Below the pieces are notes generated by a model. That model worked only from the letters and a program-made list of their open reading frames with translations. It was not told the DNA's origin and ran no database searches. From the NCBI GenBank assembly GCA_040757335.1, contig JBFLXB010000003.1, forward strand, positions 117,899 to 171,946: DNA of 54,048 nucleotides. The letters run 5' to 3'. Positions 3,831 through 53,920 of the stretch are shown one piece after another. Source of the DNA: Nitrospirota bacterium. Lineage in GTDB: Bacteria > Nitrospirota > Nitrospiria > 2-01-FULL-66-17. A program made the translations under genes and the position numbers. Positions within the stretch are counted from its first letter, which is position 1, and every line of letters begins with the position of its first letter.

Positions 3831-3911
3831 TAAGGGGTTGGAGAGGCGCAGTCGCAAGCCGGGGCTATCGTTGTCTCGCGACGCGGACCCGCGCGGTTGG
3901 AGGGAAGTTGG

Positions 3912-4844
3912 ATGGACGAAAGCCCGCAGTCGCCTGAACGGGAGCCGATCAAGAAGGACGCCCTGTTTTACGGAATGGTCGCCGCGTTCATCGCGTTTGT
4001 GCTCATGGTGGTGTTTATGCTGTACGCGATGGTCCAGTCGCGGGCGGTCGGTCGCCTGGCTGCGCAGACGGCCTCGGCACCCCCGGAGGCTGTTCAAACC
4101 GAGCAGTGGGATTTCAGCCGTCTCCGGATCGCCACGCAAGAAGATGGATCCGCGATGGTGCTGGTGCCGGCCGGGCCGTTCCTGATGGGCAGCCCCCCGG
4201 TTGAGGGAGACCAGGACGAAATGCCGCAACGGGGCGTCTTCCTCAAGGCGTTTTGGATCGACCTGTACGAGGTCACCTTCAAGGACTACGCCAGGTTCGT
4301 TTCCGCCACCAGAGCGCCCCAACCCGTGATCCCGGTGCTGCAAGACGACCCCGCGAAGTTGATGGCGCCGGAGCAACCCGTGGTCGCGGTTTCGTGGCCC
4401 CAGGCCAACAGCTACTGTACGTGGCTAGGGAAGCGGCTACCGACCGAAGCCGAGTGGGAAAAAGCCGCGCGCGGCGAGCGGGGAGTCCAGTGGCCGTGGG
4501 GCCACCGGTTCGGCCCAGGCCTGGCGAACCATCAGGGCGAGGAGGACGGGTTTCGTTACACCGCTCCGCCCGGATCGTTTCCCAAGGGCCGGAGTCCCTA
4601 TGGTCTGTATGACGCAGCGGGTAACGCGGCGGAGTGGGTCGCGGACTGGTACGGCGACAAGTATTACTTGGGCGCGCCCTTCGAATCGCCCGCCGGACCT
4701 GAAACCGGCAAGCACCGCGTCTATCGAGGGGGATCGTGGAACGATACGCCGTCCGATCTCCGAACCGCGAAACGGTTCACGGCAGCCCCCCATCAAACCA
4801 GCGCGGTGATCGGATTCCGGTGTGCGAAGGACGTCGAGGAGTGA
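3912..4844 (+). CDS. Membrane-anchored SUMF1/FGE-fold protein lacking catalytic cysteines (copy 1)
   Basis: 310 residues. One N-terminal membrane helix (about residues 18-42) is followed by a formylglycine-generating-enzyme-like domain: MVLVPAGPFLMGS, then AFWIDLYEVTFKDYARFV, GKRLPTEAEWEKAARG, AGNAAEWVADW, YRGGSWND and GFRCAK. True sulfatase-activating enzymes carry a cysteine pair shortly after the RGGS element that binds copper. Here that stretch reads SWNDTPSDLRTAKR with no cysteine, so oxidase chemistry is unlikely and a structural or binding role is inferred. ATG 3912 is preferred over TTG 3897 because GGAGGGA is spaced six bases from it. A paralogue lies at 5778. Confidence 0.85.
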   Translation: MDESPQSPEREPIKKDALFYGMVAAFIAFVLMVVFMLYAMVQSRAVGRLAAQTASAPPEAVQTEQWDFSRLRIATQEDGSAMVLVPAGPFLMGSPPVEGDQDEMPQRGVFLKAFWIDLYEVTFKDYARFVSATRAPQPVIPVLQDDPAKLMAPEQPVVAVSWPQANSYCTWLGKRLPTEAEWEKAARGERGVQWPWGHRFGPGLANHQGEEDGFRYTAPPGSFPKGRSPYGLYDAAGNAAEWVADWYGDKYYLGAPFESPAGPETGKHRVYRGGSWNDTPSDLRTAKRFTAAPHQTSAVIGFRCAKDVEE

Positions 4845-5063: not shown

Positions 5064-5092
5064 TTGACTTCGCACCGGCCTCTTTCTATAAT
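5064..5092 (+). promoter_or_regulatory. Near-consensus sigma-70 promoter
   Basis: TTGACT (5064-5069), 17 bases, TATAAT (5087-5092). The expected start site is close to 5099. The downstream sequence TATAATGCCGCC is shared with the promoter at 6738-6766. An ATG at 5057 lies upstream of the -35 box and cannot be used from this promoter. Confidence 0.85.
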
Positions 5093-5777: not shown

Positions 5778-6716
5778 ATGAGTCGACTGTTCAAATGGCT
5801 GTACCTCGGATTGGTGTTGGTCATCGTCGCGATTCTACAAATCGGGATCTCACGGACCGGGCAGGTGCCGGGTTCTGACGACGGCGAAGCAGGCTACACC
5901 CCCTTGGCCGCCAAGATCAAAGCCGCCGAAGAAGGGATGAAAAACGCCGAAGCGCAGTTGGCGGCGGTGAAGATCGATCCGGAGTTCGATCGGATGGTCC
6001 TGATCCCGGGCGGGTCGTTCACGCTCGGTGATCGACGCGGCGGGGCGATCGAACAACCCGAACGCACCATCACTCTGCCCCCGTTTTTCATCGATGTCTA
6101 CGAAACCACGTTTGCGCATTATCACGCGTTCGTCTCCGCCACCGGCCATCGTAAACCCCGATTAGCGGGGTATCTTGCGGTCGACAGCAGCGGGCTGCCG
6201 CTTCTCATGAATCCCTTCAATCCCGTGGTGGGCGTGTCGTGGGACGATGCGAGCGCGTATTGCCTGTGGAAGGGGAAACGCCTCCCCACCGAGGTCGAAT
6301 GGGAGCGAGCGGCCAAAGGGCGAACGCAGCGAGAATGGCCGTGGGGCAACGAGGCCGTGCCGCGGAAGGCGAATCTGGTCGGTGAGGACGATGGGTTCAA
6401 ATATACCTCGCCGGTAGGCACGTTTCGCAGCGATCAGAGCCCGGAGGGCGTGTTCGATCTGGCTGGAAACGCTATGGAATGGACAGCTGATTGGTTTGAC
6501 GAGCGATACTACGCCATGATGTCGGGCACGAATCCGCTGGGCCCTCCAACGGGCACAGAACGGGTCATCCGCGGCGCGTCGTGGAACGACTCGCTGACCC
6601 GTGCCAAGACCCCCACTCGGTTTAAAATGCGTCCTGATTATCGCGATGTAACCATTGGATTTCGCTGTGCAAAGTCAGCGCCGCAGACCATGGTTCCAGA
6701 GGGGCTGGATCTCTGA
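5778..6716 (+). CDS. Membrane-anchored SUMF1/FGE-fold protein lacking catalytic cysteines (copy 2)
   Basis: 312 residues, paralogous to the gene at 3912. An N-terminal membrane helix (WLYLGLVLVIVAILQIGI) leads to a short linker and the SUMF1-type domain: MVLIPGGSFTLGD, FFIDVYETTFAHYHAFV, GKRLPTEVEWERAAKG, AGNAMEWTADWF, IRGASWND, GFRCAK. The expected copper-binding cysteine pair after the RGAS element is absent (WNDSLTRAKTPTRFK). Presence of two such proteins around a block of small membrane proteins and just before the oxidase operon suggests a scaffold or assembly function. That role is inference; family membership is clear. Confidence 0.85.
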   Translation: MSRLFKWLYLGLVLVIVAILQIGISRTGQVPGSDDGEAGYTPLAAKIKAAEEGMKNAEAQLAAVKIDPEFDRMVLIPGGSFTLGDRRGGAIEQPERTITLPPFFIDVYETTFAHYHAFVSATGHRKPRLAGYLAVDSSGLPLLMNPFNPVVGVSWDDASAYCLWKGKRLPTEVEWERAAKGRTQREWPWGNEAVPRKANLVGEDDGFKYTSPVGTFRSDQSPEGVFDLAGNAMEWTADWFDERYYAMMSGTNPLGPPTGTERVIRGASWNDSLTRAKTPTRFKMRPDYRDVTIGFRCAKSAPQTMVPEGLDL

Positions 6717-6737: not shown

Positions 6738-6766
6738 TTGACACGGTATATCGCCTTCCCTATAAT
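6738..6766 (+). promoter_or_regulatory. Consensus sigma-70 promoter for the oxidase operon
   Basis: A perfect TTGACA (6738-6743), 17 bases and a perfect TATAAT (6761-6766). The start site should be near 6773, about 48 bases before the first tiny gene at 6821. This is the strongest promoter in the window, implying high constitutive expression of the operon running to the terminator at 13229. Confidence 0.9.
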
Positions 6767-6820
6767 GCCGCTGTCCTTTTACGGACAGAGCCTGAGCCGA
6801 CTCGCCCACGAGGAGTTCTG

Positions 6821-6964
6821 ATGGAAAAAAAACAACAAACCCAGCAGGGTAGTGGCAGCCGTGCAGGTGCCATTATCTACATCGTCGTCTCCGTTATTTC
6901 GATCTGGTTTTTCTACTGGTTCGGCAACATCGCGGCAAGCAGTCACAGTTACGGTGGGCACTAG
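6821..6964 (+). CDS. Tiny membrane protein leading the bd-like oxidase operon
   Basis: Forty-seven residues: a Lys/Gln/Ser-rich N-terminus (MEKKQQTQQGSGSR), one helix (AGAIIYIVVSVISIWFFYWF) and a short tail GNIAASSHSYGGH with two histidines. GAGGAG precedes ATG 6821 by six bases. It is the first gene after the consensus promoter. Small single-helix subunits such as CydX or CcoQ are known in other terminal oxidases; this one has no sequence match I can name, so the analogy rests on size and position. Confidence 0.7.
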   Translation: MEKKQQTQQGSGSRAGAIIYIVVSVISIWFFYWFGNIAASSHSYGGH

Positions 6965-7000
6965 TCCAATCCCGTTTGGCGTGGAAAGGGTGCAAGAACG

Positions 7001-7120
7001 ATGAAGATGGTGATCATGCTGGCAGTGGCAATCGTCGCATGGTTTTTTTACTTCCAGACCATCGACTGGTTGTTCATGAAGATTCAGGGGCTGGATTACT
7101 TTACCTTTCTGAAGATTTAG
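7001..7120 (+). CDS. Tiny hydrophobic protein, second gene of the oxidase operon
   Basis: Thirty-nine residues, almost wholly hydrophobic: MKMVIMLAVAIVAWFFYFQ, then TIDWLFMKIQGLDYFTFLKI. It lies 36 bases after the preceding tiny gene and 66 bases before the CydA-like gene. The ribosome site is only moderate (GGAAAGGG about eleven bases upstream). No family recognised. Placement between a consensus promoter and the oxidase subunit makes a CydX-like accessory subunit the likeliest explanation. Confidence 0.6.
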   Translation: MKMVIMLAVAIVAWFFYFQTIDWLFMKIQGLDYFTFLKI

Positions 7121-7186
7121 TCTGACGCCAAGAACCTCCGGAGTCGACTCACCATCCGAGCGGTCGGCAAAACGAAGGAGAATCCT

Positions 7187-9136
7187 ATGAAGCTGATGAG
7201 AGCGATGGGGAATGGAAAGAGGGTATGGTCCCTCTTGATGCTGGGGGCAATGGCGTTCACGCTGCTCCTTCCTCTGGCGCTCGTTGTTGTCCCGACCACC
7301 GCGCTGGCCGACGAGGCTGCTACGACGGCCGCGGCGACCGAGGGGTGTGAAAAGAAAGGCAAAGACGTCTATTTCAAGATTGAGGGCTGTGTTTCCGGTC
7401 CTCCGGCGCCGCAGACGACCGCGACCGACTACCCATCGTATAACCTGCCGTACCCCTTGAGTGAAAACCGAGTGATCGTCTGGACCGTCGCGCAGCAGCA
7501 CCTCTATTTCGGGAGCTTCGTGTTGGCGGTGCCGATCTTCTGCATGATCATCGAGCTGGTCGGGATCATGTCCAAAGACCGGGCGATCGGCAAGCGATAC
7601 GACGACCTGGCTCATGACTTCGTCCGCATCAGCTTGACTGCCTACTCGGTGACCGCCATCCTCGGCGGTCTGTTGCTCTTCACGTTCATCTCGCTGTACC
7701 CGGTATTCTTCAGTTACCTGACGTCGCTCTTCAAGCCGTTCATGCACATCTACGCGCTCCTCTTCCTGGCGGAGAGCGGGACACTCTACATCTACTACTA
7801 CGGTTGGGACCGGATGAACGACGGCGGGTTTCTCAAGTGGATCCACGCCACGCTGGGCGTCCTTCTCAACGTCTTTGGCAGCGTCTTGATGATGTTGGCC
7901 AACTCCTGGGCCAGTTTCATGATGTCCCCGGCCGGCGTCGATGAGAAGGGCCAGTTCCTGGGGAATCTGACGCACGTGCTCCACAACGCGCTGTGGAATC
8001 CGTTGAACGTGCACCGCATCATCGGCAACATGGTGTTCGGGGGCGGGATCGTGGCGGCGTACGCGGCCTACAAATTCCTCTCGTCCAAAACCGACAACGA
8101 GAAGGCATATTATGACTGGATGGGATACGTGGCGATGTTCCTGGCCATCGCGTCCCTGATCCCGCTTCCGTTCGCGGGCTACTGGCTGATGCGCGAGGTC
8201 TACGCCTACCGCCAGCAGATGGGCATCACGCTGATGGGCGGGTTGCTCGCCTGGTTGTTCATCATTCAGGCCGTGCTCATCGGCGCCCTGTTCTTCACCA
8301 CCAACTACTACCTGTTCAACGGCATGGGGCGGATGCGGGGTTCCGAACCCTACCGGAAATACATCAAATACATCCTGTTCCTCACCACCGCGGCGTTCCT
8401 CGTGTGGCTGACGCCCCACACGCTGGTGATGCGCGCCGCCGAGCTCAAAGCCATCGGCGGCCAGCAGCATCCCGTGATCGGGAACTTCGGGGTGATGTCG
8501 GCGAAGAACGGTGCCGTGAACACGATGTTGATGACCACGATCATTTCGTTCATCTTGTACCAGCGGTGCAACAAGATCATCACGGTCTCGTGGGCCGCCT
8601 GGGGCAACGCCGTGATGATCGGGATGTTCGCGGTGGCGATGGTGAACAACTGGTGGCTGGCGATCATCGGCTACTACATCCCGGCGAACGTTCGCGTCGG
8701 CCTCTCCGTACCCCAGGTGATGGGGACCCTGACGTGTCTCTTCGTCGGTCTCGCCCTCAACAGCGCCATGATGAGGGGCGCCAAGCTCACCGGTCCGGTC
8801 GAGTGGGGCAAGATCTCCGTGCGCTCCCAGTACGGGCTCTTTGCGCTGGCGGTGTCCTTTACGTGGTTGATGGCGCTGATGGGGTATATCCGATCTTCGG
8901 TGCGATTGTTCTGGCACGCGATGGAGGTGTTCAGGGACAACTCCCCCTGGGCCTTCACCCACACGATCGGATTTGCGGCGAACGTCATGTCTTTCAACGT
9001 GTTGATCTTTTGGGTCTTCACATTGTTCGTGTTCTGGCTTGGGGAATTCTCTACGCACAAACAACTGCCTTCGATGGTCGACGAGCGCAAACCCGTTGGC
9101 CTCGGGCAGCCGGTGATCGCCGGAGGGTCGAAGTAA
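7187..9136 (+). CDS. Cytochrome bd-like terminal oxidase large subunit (CydA-related)
   Basis: 649-residue polytopic membrane protein, inferred to reduce oxygen. AAGGAG precedes ATG 7187. The N-terminus looks like a signal sequence or first helix ending TTALADE, then a periplasmic segment with Cys54 and Cys68. CydA-like landmarks follow: WTVAQQHLYFGSFV (His105, likely the counterpart of the heme-binding histidine in helix 1), LAESGTLYIYYYGWD (Glu196), LANSWASFMMSPAG and NVHRIIGNMVFGGG (His276). The long quinol-binding loop and GRQPW motif of classical CydA are not seen, and the chain carries several extra C-terminal helices. No CydB gene follows; three cytochromes c do. This resembles the bd-like oxidases of Nitrospira. 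Heme content and donor are inferred. Confidence 0.85.
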   Translation: MKLMRAMGNGKRVWSLLMLGAMAFTLLLPLALVVVPTTALADEAATTAAATEGCEKKGKDVYFKIEGCVSGPPAPQTTATDYPSYNLPYPLSENRVIVWTVAQQHLYFGSFVLAVPIFCMIIELVGIMSKDRAIGKRYDDLAHDFVRISLTAYSVTAILGGLLLFTFISLYPVFFSYLTSLFKPFMHIYALLFLAESGTLYIYYYGWDRMNDGGFLKWIHATLGVLLNVFGSVLMMLANSWASFMMSPAGVDEKGQFLGNLTHVLHNALWNPLNVHRIIGNMVFGGGIVAAYAAYKFLSSKTDNEKAYYDWMGYVAMFLAIASLIPLPFAGYWLMREVYAYRQQMGITLMGGLLAWLFIIQAVLIGALFFTTNYYLFNGMGRMRGSEPYRKYIKYILFLTTAAFLVWLTPHTLVMRAAELKAIGGQQHPVIGNFGVMSAKNGAVNTMLMTTIISFILYQRCNKIITVSWAAWGNAVMIGMFAVAMVNNWWLAIIGYYIPANVRVGLSVPQVMGTLTCLFVGLALNSAMMRGAKLTGPVEWGKISVRSQYGLFALAVSFTWLMALMGYIRSSVRLFWHAMEVFRDNSPWAFTHTIGFAANVMSFNVLIFWVFTLFVFWLGEFSTHKQLPSMVDERKPVGLGQPVIAGGSK

Positions 9137-9210
9137 CGTCGATTAAGTAATTCGCGGAGCGGCCCCTCCGTCCTGGAGGGGCCGCCAATCCCAGACTAGG
9201 AGAGGATGCG

Positions 9211-10467
9211 GTGATTCCAGGAAAGCTCGGCCTCATTGTGGGTATTGTCGCAGGCGTCTGGTTTATCAAGTGGGCATCGAGTGGACTGGGTCCGCTCGGC
9301 CTGGCGTTCGGCCTGTTGCTCAGCGCGGTCTTTCTGATGTGGCTGGGCTACATGCTCCCCAAGGCTCGGATGCTGCTGGTCTCAATCGGGTTCTTCACGT
9401 TGATGAGCGGATCCTTTGCCAGCTATTCGAACTGGCTACCACAGAGCCGCGGTGAGGTGCCGCCGGTGGAGCCAGCCGGCGCCGCCAAGAAAGCCGAGGA
9501 CATGACGACCCAGGAACTCGCGGACAAAGGCGAGATGATCATCTTCGGCGAGATGGGCACGCTCCACGGCCAGGGGAAAGGGCAGTGTCCGCTGTGTCAC
9601 GGGTTCAAGAAGGGTGACGTGAGCGAGCGCGCGCCGAACCTGGCCGGCATCCCGTCACGTGCCGCGGAGCGGATCAAAGATCCCCGGTATCTCAAACCCG
9701 ATTCCGTGCAGACCGAAGCGTTTTCAGGGAGCGGGCGGGCGACGTCGGCCATTGAGTACATCGCCGAGTCCCATTCCTGCCCGAACTGCTTCATCGTGGC
9801 TGGGTTCGGAGTAAAGGGCAGCAACGACCGCGAAAGCCCGATGCCCCAGGTCCACAAGCCGCCGATCCAGCTCTCCATCGATGAACTGATCGCGGTCGAT
9901 ACCTGGTTGTTCACTCGCGAGGGCGAAGAGGCCCCGGCGGTTGCGGATCTCCGTGCGGCCTACGAAAAGTTTATCCCGGCCGCTGACCGGCCCGAACCGG
10001 CTCAAGAAGCCGCGGCGCCTGCGGGTGGCGCTCCCGCCATCGCGATCGCGATGGGAACCGATAAGCCGGAAGATATGCTGACTAAGATGGGGTGCGGAGC
10101 CTGTCACACGATTCCCACCACCCCCAACAAGTTTGGCGCCATCGGCCCTGTCCTGGTCGAAAAGACCAATGCGAGTAAGCGCATCGCATCTCCGGAGTAT
10201 CAGGCTCGCGTGAAGGCCGGCAAGGCTCACGCGAAGACTCCAAAAGAGTATGTTATCGAGTCGATCATGAATCCGAGCGCCTTCGTGATTCCAGCATTCA
10301 AGAACCCGGGCGCTCCGGATGTGTCGATGATGCCTGCTGATTTCTCCAAGAAGTTTACTTACGAAGCGGTCGAAAAGCTGGCGGATTTTCTGTTGTCGAT
10401 CGACGAGTCGGCCGCGGCAAAGGACGGGATCAAAGTCGACAAGGATGGGAAGAAACTGCCTGGGTAG
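9211..10467 (+). CDS. Membrane-anchored diheme c-type cytochrome
   Basis: 418 residues from GTG 9211, with AGGAGAGG five bases upstream. Three hydrophobic helices occupy about residues 5-72; the rest is predicted periplasmic. Two CXXCH heme c sites are present: CPLCH (126-130) and CGACH (295-299). A further CPNC at about 190-193 lacks the histidine. The two heme domains are joined by an Ala/Pro-rich linker. Lying 74 bases after the oxidase subunit and on the same strand, it is the obvious candidate for electron delivery to it. Confidence 0.9.
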   Translation: MIPGKLGLIVGIVAGVWFIKWASSGLGPLGLAFGLLLSAVFLMWLGYMLPKARMLLVSIGFFTLMSGSFASYSNWLPQSRGEVPPVEPAGAAKKAEDMTTQELADKGEMIIFGEMGTLHGQGKGQCPLCHGFKKGDVSERAPNLAGIPSRAAERIKDPRYLKPDSVQTEAFSGSGRATSAIEYIAESHSCPNCFIVAGFGVKGSNDRESPMPQVHKPPIQLSIDELIAVDTWLFTREGEEAPAVADLRAAYEKFIPAADRPEPAQEAAAPAGGAPAIAIAMGTDKPEDMLTKMGCGACHTIPTTPNKFGAIGPVLVEKTNASKRIASPEYQARVKAGKAHAKTPKEYVIESIMNPSAFVIPAFKNPGAPDVSMMPADFSKKFTYEAVEKLADFLLSIDESAAAKDGIKVDKDGKKLPG

Positions 10468-10551
10468 TTGTCGACTTGCGCGGTTGGCTGAGTGTCACAC
10501 GAACGGGTGCAGTGGCTAGTGTCACTTCCGTACTAGGGGAGGAGGGGTCCG

Positions 10552-11469
10552 GTGGGTAAGATTTGGATTCCAGGAGCCATGCCGGTTGAGCTCTTGCTGA
10601 TTCTGGCGGCAGTGTTCTTCGCCTTCGTGGCCGGTGGGTGGGTGCTGAAGAAGCAAGGTCGGCCGATTCCGAAGTTCTGGCAAGCGATTCTAATCTGGAT
10701 CGCCGCCTACGTCGTTCTCCGCTACGTCTTGTATCCACCGATTCCTTCGGCCCTCCTCAAGACCTACATGGGGCTGATCACCCTGGTGCTCTTCCTGTTG
10801 GTGTCGTCCGACGAGGAGTCTTGGACCGAATTCAAGGATCCCATCCTCAAGGTGCTGAGGGGAGCGACGCCAGGATTTCGGAGCATTCGTACCATCACGT
10901 TCGTGGCGCTTCCCGCGCTCATCGCGTTTGGAACCTACGACACGATCGTGCCGAAATTCGAGGAGCCGATCGAGCTGCGAACCGTGCACCCTGCGCCTCC
11001 GGCTTCGGTCAAGGTTGCCGGAAAGACCTTCACGCTGCAGACCGCTGAGAATCCGTTCCGCGTGGATGAAGAGGGTAAGTACTCGCGCGATATTCAGCAG
11101 CAGCACGTCAATGACAATCCCTGGGATCCCAACGCCGTCAAGTACATGAAATACGTTCGGGAAGGCGGCGCGATCTTTTTCCAGAATTGCCACTTCTGCC
11201 ACGGAGATAACCTCGACGGACGCGGTATGTTCGCGTTCGCGTTCAACCCGATTCCGGCCAACTTCACGGACGCTGGCACGATTGCTCAGTTGCAGGAAAC
11301 CTTCGTGTTCTGGCGCGTGGCCAAGGGCGGGATGGGGCTTCCACGCGAAGGCTTCCCGTGGGCGTCCGTGATGCCGCCGTGGGAGCAGCACCTGACCACC
11401 GACGAGATGTGGAAGGTGATCATGTTCGAGTACTGGCACACGGGCTTCTATCCAAGAACGTGGGATTGA
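10552..11469 (+). CDS. Membrane-anchored monoheme c-type cytochrome
   Basis: 305 residues from GTG 10552 with GGGGAGGAGGGG just upstream. Four hydrophobic segments lie in the first 130 residues. A periplasmic domain follows with one heme c site, CHFCH (213-217), and a probable axial methionine in WASVMPPWE. The domain architecture (multi-helix anchor then cytochrome c) parallels the previous gene. It belongs to the same operon, 84 bases downstream of it. Predicted role: heme relay or anchoring subunit of the bd-like oxidase complex. Confidence 0.88.
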   Translation: MGKIWIPGAMPVELLLILAAVFFAFVAGGWVLKKQGRPIPKFWQAILIWIAAYVVLRYVLYPPIPSALLKTYMGLITLVLFLLVSSDEESWTEFKDPILKVLRGATPGFRSIRTITFVALPALIAFGTYDTIVPKFEEPIELRTVHPAPPASVKVAGKTFTLQTAENPFRVDEEGKYSRDIQQQHVNDNPWDPNAVKYMKYVREGGAIFFQNCHFCHGDNLDGRGMFAFAFNPIPANFTDAGTIAQLQETFVFWRVAKGGMGLPREGFPWASVMPPWEQHLTTDEMWKVIMFEYWHTGFYPRTWD

Positions 11470-11518
11470 TCGAGCGTAAGTCGCGCCAACTCATCCAGGA
11501 AAAATCGGGAGTCTGACG

Positions 11519-13201
11519 ATGAAGGGGATACTGAAGGGTTCGAGCAAGCGGGGACTGGTGATCGGGCTCACTCTGTTTGCTCTAATCGGGGCGGTGCTTG
11601 TGTCCACAGTCGTGATCACGACCGCGCAAGAAGAGAAAGCCGCGGCTCCAGCGACAGCGGCCATTCCTCCAAAGGCGACGCCTGAAGATTTGGAAGCCGG
11701 GAAAGCAGTCTATTTCAGAAAATGTGTCTGGTGCCACGGCCCTGAAGGTGCGGGAGATGGTCCCGGCGCGGACCGCTTGTGGCCACGACCCCGGAACTTC
11801 AATCAGGGGACCTTCAAGATCCGCCATACGGCGAGCGGAGAACTTCCCTTGCTCGACGATCTGTTCCAGACCGTGACCCATGGCCTTCCGGGTTCGGCCA
11901 TGCCCGCGTGGGACGGCATCTTGAGCGAAAAGCAGCGGCGGCAGGTCGTGGAGTTCGTCCGCACCGAGTTGGTGAAGGATCGCGACTTTACCGACGCTGA
12001 GACCGAGACCTATACACCGATCAATTTCGGGAAACAAGTCCCCAGCTCGGAAGAAAGCATCGCGCGCGGCAAAGAAGTGTTCATGAACAAGGGGAAGTGT
12101 GTGGAGTGCCACGGCCCCGAAGCCCGAGGCGACGGGAATGCGACTCAGAAGGACGAGTGGGACTTCCCGATCCGGCCCGCGGATCTCCACAAGTGCTGGA
12201 ACTTCAGAGGCAATCGTGGCGATCCGTATAATCCGGCGAATATCTTCCGGGAGGTTTCGACCGGACTCAACGGCACGCCCATGCCGTCGTTCGCAGATGT
12301 GCTCAGTGAGGAACAGCGGTGGGACGTCGCGAACTTTGTGATTTCGCTGTGCCCCAAGAAGCAGATCGACCCGCTGACCATGAAGCCGAATAACGATTTC
12401 GTGGTGCGATCCAAGTTCGCGGAGGGTGACCTTCCGACGGATCCGGACGATCCCAAGTGGCAGGAAATGGCACCGAACTACGTGGGACTGGGCGGACAGA
12501 TCACCCACAAGCCGAGAAATTTCGTTCGCCTGGTCGACGATGCCTGGGTTCGTTCGTTGTACAACGACAAGGAAATCGCGTACCTGATCGAGTGGGATGA
12601 TCGAAACAAGAGCGTCGCCACGCCCGAAGCACTGGCCATGGCCGCGACGTTTGAAGAAACCCCGCCGGAGGGCAAGCCCATTGCCGAGCGCGAGTACCCC
12701 GTGTTCAATGACGCCGCTGCGATTCAGTTTCCGACCAAGTGGGAAACGCTCAACGCGCCGGAGAAACCGCGCTTCATGTTCGGCGACGCAAAGAACGGCG
12801 TGGATATCTGGAAGTGGTCGGCCGATGGGTCGGTGAAAATGCTCAACGGCAGTGGGTGGGATCAGGAACTCGTTCCGCACGGGAGCGGTGAGGTCACGAC
12901 GCCGTACGTCCAGCACAAGGACGGACAATGGAGAGTCATTTTCAAGCGGCCGCTGGTGACCGATGACAAGGAGAAAGCCGTCCAGTTCACCACCGGCCAG
13001 TACATTCCAACGCTCTTCTTCGTCTGGGACGGGCACAACGGTGATACCGGCCGGAAAACTTCGCTCTCGAGCTGGTATTACACGATCTTGATGCCGCCGA
13101 TCCCGACCAAGGCGTACGTCTATCCGTTGTTCGCCGCGGCGTTCGTGATCGGGCTGCAATTCTGGGTCACGTCCAAGGTCAAGAACGGCAAGAAGAAGTA
13201 A
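11519..13201 (+). CDS. Diheme cytochrome c fused to an ethylbenzene-dehydrogenase-type heme b domain
   Basis: 560 residues. N-terminal signal/anchor helix (GLVIGLTLFALIGAVLVSTV), two cytochrome c domains with CVWCH (69-73) and CVECH (194-198), then a C-terminal domain resembling the heme-b-binding gamma subunit of ethylbenzene dehydrogenase and related molybdoenzymes (about residues 290-520, including DIWKWSADGSVKMLNG). A final membrane helix (YPLFAAAFVIGLQFW) is followed by a basic tail. The fusion could carry three hemes and bridge a periplasmic donor to the membrane. It is the last gene before a strong terminator, so it closes the oxidase operon. Domain assignment by eye is good for the c domains and fair for the b domain. 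Confidence 0.85.
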   Translation: MKGILKGSSKRGLVIGLTLFALIGAVLVSTVVITTAQEEKAAAPATAAIPPKATPEDLEAGKAVYFRKCVWCHGPEGAGDGPGADRLWPRPRNFNQGTFKIRHTASGELPLLDDLFQTVTHGLPGSAMPAWDGILSEKQRRQVVEFVRTELVKDRDFTDAETETYTPINFGKQVPSSEESIARGKEVFMNKGKCVECHGPEARGDGNATQKDEWDFPIRPADLHKCWNFRGNRGDPYNPANIFREVSTGLNGTPMPSFADVLSEEQRWDVANFVISLCPKKQIDPLTMKPNNDFVVRSKFAEGDLPTDPDDPKWQEMAPNYVGLGGQITHKPRNFVRLVDDAWVRSLYNDKEIAYLIEWDDRNKSVATPEALAMAATFEETPPEGKPIAEREYPVFNDAAAIQFPTKWETLNAPEKPRFMFGDAKNGVDIWKWSADGSVKMLNGSGWDQELVPHGSGEVTTPYVQHKDGQWRVIFKRPLVTDDKEKAVQFTTGQYIPTLFFVWDGHNGDTGRKTSLSSWYYTILMPPIPTKAYVYPLFAAAFVIGLQFWVTSKVKNGKKK

Positions 13202-13228
13202 CGAACTGGGTGTGCAGTCGGAGCATTG

Positions 13229-13261
13229 GAGGCCCTGCGCGACGCGCAGGGCCTCTTTTTG
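13229..13261 (+). terminator. Strong intrinsic terminator of the oxidase operon
   Basis: A perfect 12-bp GC-rich stem (GAGGCCCTGCGC paired with GCGCAGGGCCTC) with a GAC loop spans 13229-13255 and is followed by TTTTTG. It lies 28 bases after the last cytochrome gene. Confidence 0.93.
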
Positions 13262-13277
13262 TCTGGGCCGCGTTAAA

Positions 13278-13319: not shown

Positions 13320-14123
13320 ATGGGCGAAAAATCCGAAATTCTGTTTCTGCTGTTCAGCCAACTTTCAGTCGGAGGGATCGTGCTGCTGGCGGCGATCGCC
13401 AAGCGGCAGCTCGGCCTCAGTTTCTTTCGCCTGAATGGGATGATCTTCTTCCTGCTGTTCGGCGTGGCTGTTCCGGGCATTCCCACGAGCGAGACCACGA
13501 GCCTCTGGTCGCAGGCGGTGATCATCCTGACGCTTGCCTATTCGGTCGCGCTGTTCGTGTATGTGGTGACGTTCTGGATCAAGAAGGAGACCCATCCCGT
13601 GTTCTGGCTCTATGCCGCCGCCGGGCTCGGCATTGCCCTGGTGGCCGCAAGCGGCTGGTTCTATGCCGCGCGCTCTGGTGGCGGGCTGGCGGCCGAGTTG
13701 ATCCCGGTGAGTTTTCTCTTCTCCGCGCTGATTTTAGGATCGTCGCTGCTGGGGATGTTGTTGGGACACCGCTATCTGACCAATCCCCATTTGCCGATGA
13801 GCCATCTCAACTTCGTGGCCTGGGTGTTTCTGATCGCGGTGTTGCTGCAGGGTGGGTTGACGGTCGCGGCGTTTTGGTTTGGCCTGAGTCCGGACGCGGC
13901 GTTCGCCGCCCTGCGCCTGGAGAGCGTGCTCGGTCTCTTCCTCTGGATCCGCCTGGCCATCGGCATTGCCGGGCCGCTGGTGCTGGCCGTGATGATTCTC
14001 AACACCATCCGGTATCAAGCCAACATGTCCGCCACGGGTCTCATGTATATCGCGGTGATTATGGTGATGGCGGGCGAGGCGTTTTCGCGGTATCTGCTGG
14101 TCGCCGAATCCATCCTGTTATAA
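13320..14123 (+). CDS. Polytopic membrane protein, possibly DmsC-like
   Basis: 267 residues with about eight predicted membrane helices and few charged residues. The last helices contain LNTIRYQANMSATGLMYIAVI and MAGEAFSRYLLVAES, which recall the C-terminal pattern of DmsC-type quinol-interacting anchors (a glutamate near an arginine on the last helix). RYLTNPHLPMSHLN is a conserved-looking loop. No ribosome site better than weak is seen before ATG 13320. It sits outside the oxidase terminator but directly after it. Membrane location is clear; the DmsC relation and any quinone role are tentative. Confidence 0.65.
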   Translation: MGEKSEILFLLFSQLSVGGIVLLAAIAKRQLGLSFFRLNGMIFFLLFGVAVPGIPTSETTSLWSQAVIILTLAYSVALFVYVVTFWIKKETHPVFWLYAAAGLGIALVAASGWFYAARSGGGLAAELIPVSFLFSALILGSSLLGMLLGHRYLTNPHLPMSHLNFVAWVFLIAVLLQGGLTVAAFWFGLSPDAAFAALRLESVLGLFLWIRLAIGIAGPLVLAVMILNTIRYQANMSATGLMYIAVIMVMAGEAFSRYLLVAESILL

Positions 14124-14264: not shown

Positions 14265-14969
14265 ATGCCAAAACAATCATACCAAGGGACTGTCACCGAC
14301 ATCGAGACCCTGACACCGACCGTCAAGGTCTTCCGCTTGGCGTTCGAGCCGGCGACGAATTTTTCGTTCATCGCTGGGCAATACGTGATGGTGGACGTCT
14401 TGAAGGACGGGGCGGTTATTCACAAGCCGTACTCGATTGCCTCCCCTCCGCATCAGAAAGACATCGATCTGTGCATTAAGTACGTGGAGGGGGGGTACGT
14501 CTCGACGTATTTCCATACCAAGGTTCGGGTGGGCGATGTGCTCACCGTGCACGAGGCGCTCGGGTTTTTTGTGGACCGTGGCGGGCCGCACGAGCGCGTG
14601 TACGTGGGAACCGGTACCGGGATCGCGCCGATCCGCAGCATGATCCTCGATCTATACCATGCTGGATTCGAGGGGCCGATGTCCGTGTATTTCGGGGTCC
14701 GGTACGAGGACGAACTTCTCTACGAGCCGGATTGGCGGAGGCTGGAAGCTGAACACCCCGCGTTTCGGTTCATTCCGGTGGTCAGTCGTCCCAAAACCTG
14801 GACCGGCCGCACTGGGTGGGTGCAGGACGCTTTGCGGGACACGTTGCGCGATCCTGCGTCCAAAGAGGTCTATGTCTGTGGGCTGGTGCCGATGGTCAAG
14901 GCCGTCAAGCCGTTGCTCATGGAATTGGGCGTGCCGCGGCAGCAAATTCACACCGAAAAATACATCTAA
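14265..14969 (+). CDS. Ferredoxin/flavodoxin-NADP reductase-type FAD oxidoreductase
   Basis: 234 residues with the FNR fold only: an FAD domain with HKPYSIAS (the RxYS-type FAD motif) at about residues 50-57, and an NAD(P) domain with GTGTGIAPIRSM near 118-129 and EVYVCGLVPMV near 203-213. There is no attached iron-sulfur domain, so it must pass electrons to a separate partner. The C-terminus ends HTEKYI. ATG 14265 has no Shine-Dalgarno sequence because a palindromic element runs almost up to it. It could serve the neighbouring respiratory region, but that link is only positional. Confidence 0.85.
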   Translation: MPKQSYQGTVTDIETLTPTVKVFRLAFEPATNFSFIAGQYVMVDVLKDGAVIHKPYSIASPPHQKDIDLCIKYVEGGYVSTYFHTKVRVGDVLTVHEALGFFVDRGGPHERVYVGTGTGIAPIRSMILDLYHAGFEGPMSVYFGVRYEDELLYEPDWRRLEAEHPAFRFIPVVSRPKTWTGRTGWVQDALRDTLRDPASKEVYVCGLVPMVKAVKPLLMELGVPRQQIHTEKYI

Positions 14970-50638: not shown

Positions 50639-52831
<2,193 letters not shown>

Positions 52832-52932: not shown

Positions 52933-52947
52933 ATAGTCTATGGCTAT
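52933..52947. promoter_or_regulatory. Candidate OxyR half-site
   Basis: ATAG, seven bases, CTAT (52933-52947), the form of one OxyR dimer site. It covers the oxyR start codon, which would allow OxyR to repress its own gene while activating katG. A second, matching half-site is not clear. Based on motif form only. Confidence 0.45.
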
Positions 52948-53920
52948 GAACTTGGAGTCCCATCCCTATACCTTGCGGCAACTCCAATACGCGGTGGCCG
53001 TGGCGGATACGCTGAGTTTCCGCAAAGCCGCGGAGCTCTGTCATGTTTCTCAGCCGTCGCTGAGCGCGCAACTCGCTCAACTCGAATCCGCCCTGGGCGT
53101 TCGCCTGTTCGAGCGCAATCGCAAACGCGTGTTGCCAACTGAAGCGGGGAGAGAACTGGTCAGGCGCGCCCGGCAGATCCTGATTGAATCGGACGACCTC
53201 GTCGTGGCGGCCAAGCAACTGGGCGATCCCCTGACCGGCACCCTGCGCATGGGCGTGATCCCGACCATCTCGCCGTACCTGCTGCCGCGCATCACACCCG
53301 TGCTGCGGGAGCGTTATCCGAAGCTGACGATCAACTGGGTGGAAGACAAGACCGATGTGCTGTTACGCAGTCTGGATTCGGGGAAACTGGATGCGGTGCT
53401 CCTCGCGCTGGAAGCCGACATTGGCGATGTGGAGCGGGAAATCGTGGCCCGCGATCCCTTTGTGCTGGCCACGCCTCCCGGTCACCCACTCGGCGCCACG
53501 GCTTCACCGGCCGAACCAGGAGACCTGCAAGGGACGAGTGTCCTGCTTCTGGACGATGGGCATTGCTTTCGCGATCAGGCGCTTGCGGTCTGTTCGAGCG
53601 CCAAAGCCCGCGAACTCGAATTCCGCGCAACCAGCCTGTCCACGCTGGCCCAAATGGTGGCGGGTGGTGGGGGCGTGACGCTCTTGCCCGCTCTCGCGGT
53701 GCCGACGGAGGCCGGACGAGCCGGGCTGACCGTGCGCCCGTTCGCCGAGCCCGCGCCGAGTCGAACCATTGCGCTGGCGTGGAGACGGACTTCTCCCCTC
53801 GGGGAGGCGCTCAAACGGCTTGCCGCAACGATTCGGGAGGCGTACCCGACCATTGAGAAACACGCGGCGAGGCAGCCGGCTCATCGTAAGCCGGCAGGGG
53901 GCCGCTGGAAACGTAGCTGA
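52940..53920 (+). CDS. oxyR: Hydrogen peroxide-inducible regulator OxyR
   Basis: 326 residues, LysR family. N-terminal winged helix: TLRQLQYAVAVADTLSFRKA with AELCHVSQPSLSAQLAQLES. The C-terminal domain has the redox cysteine pair Cys209 and Cys218 in DDGHCFRDQALAVCSS, spaced nine apart as in E. coli (Cys199/208), so peroxide sensing by disulfide formation is very likely. RATSLSTLAQMVAGGGGVTL is the family signature. ATG 52940 or 52946 are both possible. Divergent katG is the expected target. Confidence 0.95.
   Translation: MAMNLESHPYTLRQLQYAVAVADTLSFRKAAELCHVSQPSLSAQLAQLESALGVRLFERNRKRVLPTEAGRELVRRARQILIESDDLVVAAKQLGDPLTGTLRMGVIPTISPYLLPRITPVLRERYPKLTINWVEDKTDVLLRSLDSGKLDAVLLALEADIGDVEREIVARDPFVLATPPGHPLGATASPAEPGDLQGTSVLLLDDGHCFRDQALAVCSSAKARELEFRATSLSTLAQMVAGGGGVTLLPALAVPTEAGRAGLTVRPFAEPAPSRTIALAWRRTSPLGEALKRLAATIREAYPTIEKHAARQPAHRKPAGGRWKRS

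Follow-up and report, generated by a model that had tools for sequence, protein, structure and literature searches.

A conserved Nitrospirota operon centered on a distant relative of cytochrome bd oxidase and its candidate role as a cytochrome c-linked oxygen reductase

Introduction

In Nitrospira and its relatives, the biochemistry by which oxygen receives electrons from high-potential donors is not yet settled. The bd-like enzymes known as OR-N have been proposed to oxidize cytochrome c (PMC10839748). Nitrospira moscoviensis carries four bd-like genes, of which bd-like_3 clusters with two membrane cytochromes c and with alt_NxrC_2, a protein with one transmembrane helix and two heme motifs; bd-like_4 lies a few genes away (PMC6606698). 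For "Candidatus Manganitrophaceae," TO_1, in which a periplasmic cytochrome b accompanies a bd-like protein, has been proposed as the terminal oxidase of organisms that lack nitrification genes (PMC9040806). Here, we analyze an operon (6738-13262, forward strand) in a 54,048-nt stretch of DNA from a Nitrospirota bacterium (2-01-FULL-66-17; GCA_040757335.1, JBFLXB010000003.1, positions 117,899-171,946 of the forward strand), the whole of which we call the window. From promoter to terminator, the operon encodes two micro-proteins (s47 and s39), a CydA-like protein, and three cytochromes.

The operon is not new: the window holds the local copy of a cluster that occurs in Nitrospira and in manganese-oxidizing relatives and that is biochemically uncharacterized. 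Our results establish that the gene cluster is real and strongly promoted; its products would form a respiratory membrane complex with a remote cytochrome bd oxidase homologue at its core. The initial annotation of the window had interpreted it as a self-contained, cytochrome c-linked oxygen reductase without CydB, a reading that is partly supported by our data and was already anticipated in the literature. Lineages that carry the operon but in which no nitrite oxidoreductase (NXR), heme-copper oxidase, or CydB is detected isolate the question of its role and suggest that it works independently of nitrite oxidation.

Results and Discussion

We compared the window with the N. moscoviensis NSP M-1 genome, in which our search recovered four bd-like genes with ∼66 to 67%, 52%, 43%, and 38% identity over the matched parts. 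The N. moscoviensis cluster has the same gene order as the window, including both micro-proteins and two upstream FGE-sulfatase-domain genes, and the same promoter; like bd-like_3/alt_NxrC_2, the window holds a bd-like gene next to genes for an alt_NxrC-type protein and two membrane cytochromes c. Because the operon is the same and the four bd-like genes match the published account, we regard the operon in the window as orthologous to bd-like_3/alt_NxrC_2, a match made by described features rather than by locus tags. Unlike the N. moscoviensis cluster, the window has no second CydA-like gene adjoining the operon. The two organisms also differ in gene content: N. moscoviensis has NXR and two canonical CydAB (PMC6606698), whereas the window genome has no strong NXR match and no CydB.

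The conserved cluster type has been described as having Gln in place of one proposed copper histidine and Phe in place of one proposed high-spin heme histidine (PMC8026999). From our alignment, we infer that columns 427 and 575 are the residues meant. The window protein carries this signature (Q427, F575), in agreement with its identity as bd-like_3/alt_NxrC_2; bd-like_2 has His at 427 in 3/3 sequences and His at 575 in 2/3. The NIDE0901-type bd-like_2 (OR-N2) putative terminal oxidase belongs to the same superfamily and has the same invariant His set, with 41 to 45% identity to the window protein. Column 575 is Phe in most orthologues and His in families f8 to f11 and at locus L077, so that orthologues differ among themselves at a residue proposed to bind a cofactor. 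TO_1 is probably the counterpart of the window operon, the named Manganitrophus proteins having been compared by description only; in the families with 57 to 61% identity, column 575 holds His rather than the Phe of the window, and several of their loci gave no match to s47. Our own homologue comparisons were made within Nitrospirota, and statements on anammox and Nitrospina relatives are taken from papers.

The CydA-like (bd-like) subunit is a protein of 649 amino acids (7187..9136, forward strand) in which Pfam Cyt_bd_oxida_I matches residues 100-348 (E=1.5e-11). Counted on the mature protein, canonical CydA can be aligned with the first ∼250 to 275 residues only, and the alignment ends at about residue 347 to 364. 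Within this region, the canonical ligand histidines H19 and H186 are retained as H105 and H276 in nearly all homologues. Six histidines (H105, H220, H276, H411, H428, and H577) are invariant or near-invariant, being kept in all 26 aligned orthologues and in nearly all paralogues; H105, H276, H411, and H577 are present across nearly all paralogue groups. In a maximum-likelihood tree, the window protein belongs to a clade of eight sequences, all from families other than Nitrospiraceae, that has full support and stands separate from the duplicated, NIDE0901-type, and canonical groups; it groups with Nitrospira bd-like proteins.

Structure prediction with AlphaFold2 (AF2) gave a good model of the CydA-like protein (pLDDT, 85.5; pTM, 0.85) with 13 long helices and one N-terminal helix. 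All 10 of the PDB matches found at an E value of ≤0.001 in a fold search with this model were cytochrome bd subunit I. The superposition was loose (TM-score by target, 0.46 to 0.61; root mean square deviation, 13 to 22 Å), and for this reason the C-terminal bundle of the modeled subunit is probably different from that of cytochrome bd subunit I. If the N terminus lies outside, the order of the predicted helices would place H411, H428, and H577 in or beside periplasmic loops. We considered and rejected identity as a heme-copper oxidase, as a profile search found no PF00115 protein in the window genome and no COX1 chain was among the fold matches listed. The protein thus shares with canonical cytochrome bd (CydAB, qOR) the N-terminal helices, the equivalents of H19 and H186, and a detectable overall fold, and it departs from it in having no CydB partner, no quinol motif or GRQPW, and a different C-terminal half.

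Three c-type cytochromes, all with predicted membrane segments and with five CXXCH motifs in total, follow the CydA-like gene, as the initial annotation had stated. The first is a membrane-anchored diheme cytochrome c of 418 amino acids (9211..10467, forward strand) with CXXCH at 126 and 295 and an extra conserved CPNCF at 190. This CXXC[F/Y] motif, which lacks the His, lies between the two CXXCH motifs in every orthologue checked, including a paralogue elsewhere in the genome (CTNCY). It may represent a sixth heme site, and a disulfide seems as likely because a Met-Pro motif occurs shortly after it. The second is a monoheme cytochrome c of 305 amino acids (10552..11469, forward strand) with an N-terminal multi-helix membrane domain and CXXCH at 213. 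The third, an alt_NxrC-type protein of 560 amino acids and 62.5 kDa (11519..13201, forward strand), has two c-type hemes (69 and 194), a heme-b gamma-like domain, and a C-terminal helix. The order of these three genes is kept at 76/79 loci with enough sequence.

By its sequence, the 560-residue protein is a fusion of a diheme cytochrome c with a DMSO-reductase-type gamma (NxrC/EbdC-like) heme-b domain. Residues 56-279 make up the diheme cytochrome c part, with PDB 6h5l_B as a relative. Residues ∼391 to 521 show a match to the family of heme-b gamma subunits, among them NXR subunit C and the ethylbenzene dehydrogenase gamma subunit, with 7b04_C (NXR-C) and 2ivf_C (EbdC) as PDB matches. Because the Pfam EB_dh match is above the Pfam cutoff (E=5e-15) and the TIGR03477 DMSO_red_II_gam match is below its cutoff (E=2.5e-24; 85.8 bits against 169.85), "gamma-like" is the safe wording. 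The NxrC-like heme-b domain suggests an electron intake point. This domain, the CXXC[F/Y] motif, the two FGE-domain genes, and the genomic paralogues had been overlooked in the initial annotation, as had the published alternative of reverse electron transfer.

The operon is preceded by a perfect sigma-70 consensus promoter, TTGACA-17 bp-TATAAT (6738..6766, forward strand; 12/12 positions), of which 0.01 matches would be expected by chance in the whole window even with one mismatch allowed. The 12/12 promoter recurs upstream of orthologues, both those of the closest relatives and those of several Nitrospira, N. moscoviensis (L071) among them, and 10 to 11/12 matches precede orthologues in several other families; on this recurrence, we rejected a chance promoter. 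Only background scores (7 to 8.5) were obtained at those loci of families f8 to f11 at which tblastn found no s47 and at a few other loci. Next come two single-helix membrane proteins: s47 (6821..6964, forward strand; 47 amino acids, hydrophobic segment 16-34), with a conserved WFFYWF.G motif and no Pfam or NCBIfam match, and s39 (7001..7120, forward strand; 39 amino acids, segment 3-21), with a conserved QGLDY motif. Both are real genes rather than chance open reading frames (ORFs), because homologues lie upstream of the CydA-like gene at 83/93 (s47) and 89/93 (s39) loci and because the ratio of nonsynonymous to synonymous substitution rates (dN/dS) of s39 is low (0.11 and 0.10 versus two relatives). 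The conservation of the promoter and of both micro-proteins is newly found here. The operon ends at an intrinsic terminator with a 13-bp stem and a T-run (13228..13262, forward strand; stem-loop, 13228-13256; folding z=-3.6). The initial annotation had thus been right about the promoter, both small proteins, and the strong terminator.

How might these products work together? We give roughly an even chance to the proposal that the operon encodes one membrane respiratory complex in which the CydA-like subunit reduces oxygen without quinol or CydB. High-potential electrons would enter on the periplasmic side through the two membrane-anchored cytochromes c and the 560-residue b/c fusion that resembles NxrC; from there, they would reach b-type hemes of the CydA-like subunit, which would reduce oxygen, needing neither quinol nor CydB; the two single-helix micro-proteins would be accessory subunits. 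We infer the assembly as one complex, the direction of electron flow, oxygen as the acceptor, and the periplasmic sidedness of the cofactors. That the complex is self-contained and that the tiny proteins are structural subunits, as had been suggested initially, are plausible ideas. We would advance only tentatively the fuller statement that this is a single-CydA-type cytochrome c-linked oxygen reductase, neither CydAB nor CydAA', with an NxrC-like b/c intake arm and two micro-subunits, and that several non-nitrifying Nitrospiria lineages have no other terminal oxidase.

Several features weigh against an oxygen reductase. Canonical E99 is replaced by an invariant Tyr189, and alignment to canonical CydA revealed no sequence equivalent of M393 or E445 in the CydA-like protein. 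Motif search and alignment likewise confirmed that the GRQPW/quinol-loop motif is absent, as noted initially for a protein whose Pfam match and added helices in the AF2 model bear out its description as a CydA relative with extra helices. An alignment of GRQPW to VRLFW was weak (0.65% probability) and was not used. Residues ∼365 to 649 share no alignable sequence with canonical CydA, and local and global profile alignments of the C-terminal halves yielded nothing significant. The heme-copper oxidase-like ligand positions proposed for NIDE0901-type proteins are Gln427 and Phe575 in the window (compare PMC8026999). Relatives of the cluster have been reported from strictly anaerobic anammox bacteria (PMC3578206), and reverse electron flow has been proposed for the bd-like_3/alt_NxrC_2 cluster itself (PMC6606698). 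Heme-ligand agreement with CydA is seen for the H19 and H186 equivalents and is lost at E99, and M393 and E445 have no alignable counterpart by sequence; for the cytochrome c-linked oxygen reductase as a whole, published proposals and the lack of any other detected terminal oxidase stand against these same replaced or unaligned positions.

The last two reports make reverse electron transfer a serious rival, one that we regard as possible rather than probable. Here, high-potential electrons from a periplasmic enzyme would enter via the NxrC-like subunit and, at the cost of proton motive force, be pushed on to quinone to serve CO2 fixation, with the CydA-like protein acting as a quinone reductase-like subunit. 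Such a role has also been proposed for Nitrospina (PMC3578206), and the same paper describes extra helices in place of the canonical Q-loop; our AF2 model contains added helices as well. The NxrC-like domain of the 560-residue protein and the occurrence in anaerobes would fit this route, but the CydA-like protein has no canonical quinol-site motif, the window genome has no strong NXR match, and the operon is kept in genomes in which no other terminal oxidase was detected.

This last point comes from a survey of genome content by family searches across 40 relatives. Absences in the window genome (99% complete) rest on profile and family searches, and those in relatives rest on profile searches of draft genomes. 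CydB (PF02322), which the initial annotation had noted as absent from the operon, was found neither there nor anywhere in the window genome, whereas the same search was positive in 10 control genomes. The best TIGR03479 match in the window genome, at 62 bits, falls short of a strong NxrA/NXR match, compared with ∼190 to 215 bits for the 1,150- to 1,170-residue NXR-like proteins of relatives; dsrA gave nothing above cutoff. No other terminal oxidase was detected in a search that used COX1 and CydB profiles and hardly covered other oxidase types. Fifteen genomes of at least 90% completeness, the window's own included, have an orthologue (≥58% identity) and no detectable COX1, CydB, or strong NxrA-like match (G000, G004, G006, G009, G013, G016, G017, G019, G023, G025, G026, G029, G031, G033, and G035). 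That the operon occurs where none of heme-copper oxidase, CydB, and NXR was detected is a new finding, and the survey identifies genomes in which no oxidase candidate other than this complex is visible. A close homologue (E≤1e-100) was present in 40/40 genomes of the same class versus 14/108 others in our phylum sample.

The window also holds HemY (TIGR00562; 290 bits) and a KatG-like, KatG-sized peroxidase-family gene (726 amino acids, 50639-52819) divergent from an OxyR-like regulator (52940-53920), which indicates that the organism meets oxygen. Together with the genome content, these genes favor an oxygen-reducing role independent of nitrite oxidation; the survey thus speaks for a cytochrome c-linked oxygen reductase and against a role confined to nitrite oxidation. 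The peroxidase and regulator could also be taken to favor a detoxification enzyme that scavenges oxygen, NO, or peroxide rather than an energy-conserving oxidase, and canonical bd oxidases scavenge too. We consider this very improbable: the peroxidase lies ∼40 kb from the operon, the operon promoter is perfect and of constitutive type, and under nitrite oxidation, transcription of the matching N. moscoviensis cluster ranks within the top 40 genes of that organism (PMC6606698).

Most relatives have several CydA-like paralogues per genome, and a CydAA' pairing has been proposed for OR-N1 and OR-N2 (PMC12342949, PMC10839748). The operon might accordingly be limited to providing the CydA' half of an OR-N CydAA' oxidase, or its part for electron entry, with a paralogue elsewhere as the catalytic CydA. 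The candidate here is a second cluster on contig C5 of the same genome (L006:9495-15765). It holds two CydA-like genes in tandem, along with a 418-like cytochrome and a 305-like protein; no alt_NxrC-like gene was found in it. One of its CydA-like copies has an in-frame TAA, and its 305-like protein has CXXCR in place of CXXCH, which looks like decay or an assembly error. In G006 (96% complete), the single detectable CydA-like gene is the orthologue of the window gene, and the same is true of G011 (95% complete), which has a short sub-threshold COX1 match. The single-copy genomes and the apparent decay of the C5 cluster, where one copy carries a stop and the cytochrome beside the pair lacks CXXCH, weaken the CydAA' model for the window cluster, and we judge it unlikely.

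Upstream of the operon promoter lie two conserved neighbors encoding FGE-sulfatase-domain proteins (3897..4844 and 5778..6716, both on the forward strand), and two such genes are present upstream at 78/83 loci, a conservation that extends over the class; they are possible maturation factors. A second near-perfect sigma-70-type promoter, with one mismatch, is found at 5064-5092 and precedes short ORFs. Beyond the terminator are a gene for a 267-residue, eight-helix protein with no family match (13320-14123) and a ferredoxin/flavin reductase-like gene (14265-14969). A 40% homologue of the 267-residue protein is located ∼6 kb from another CydA-like gene at two loci (L052 and L053).

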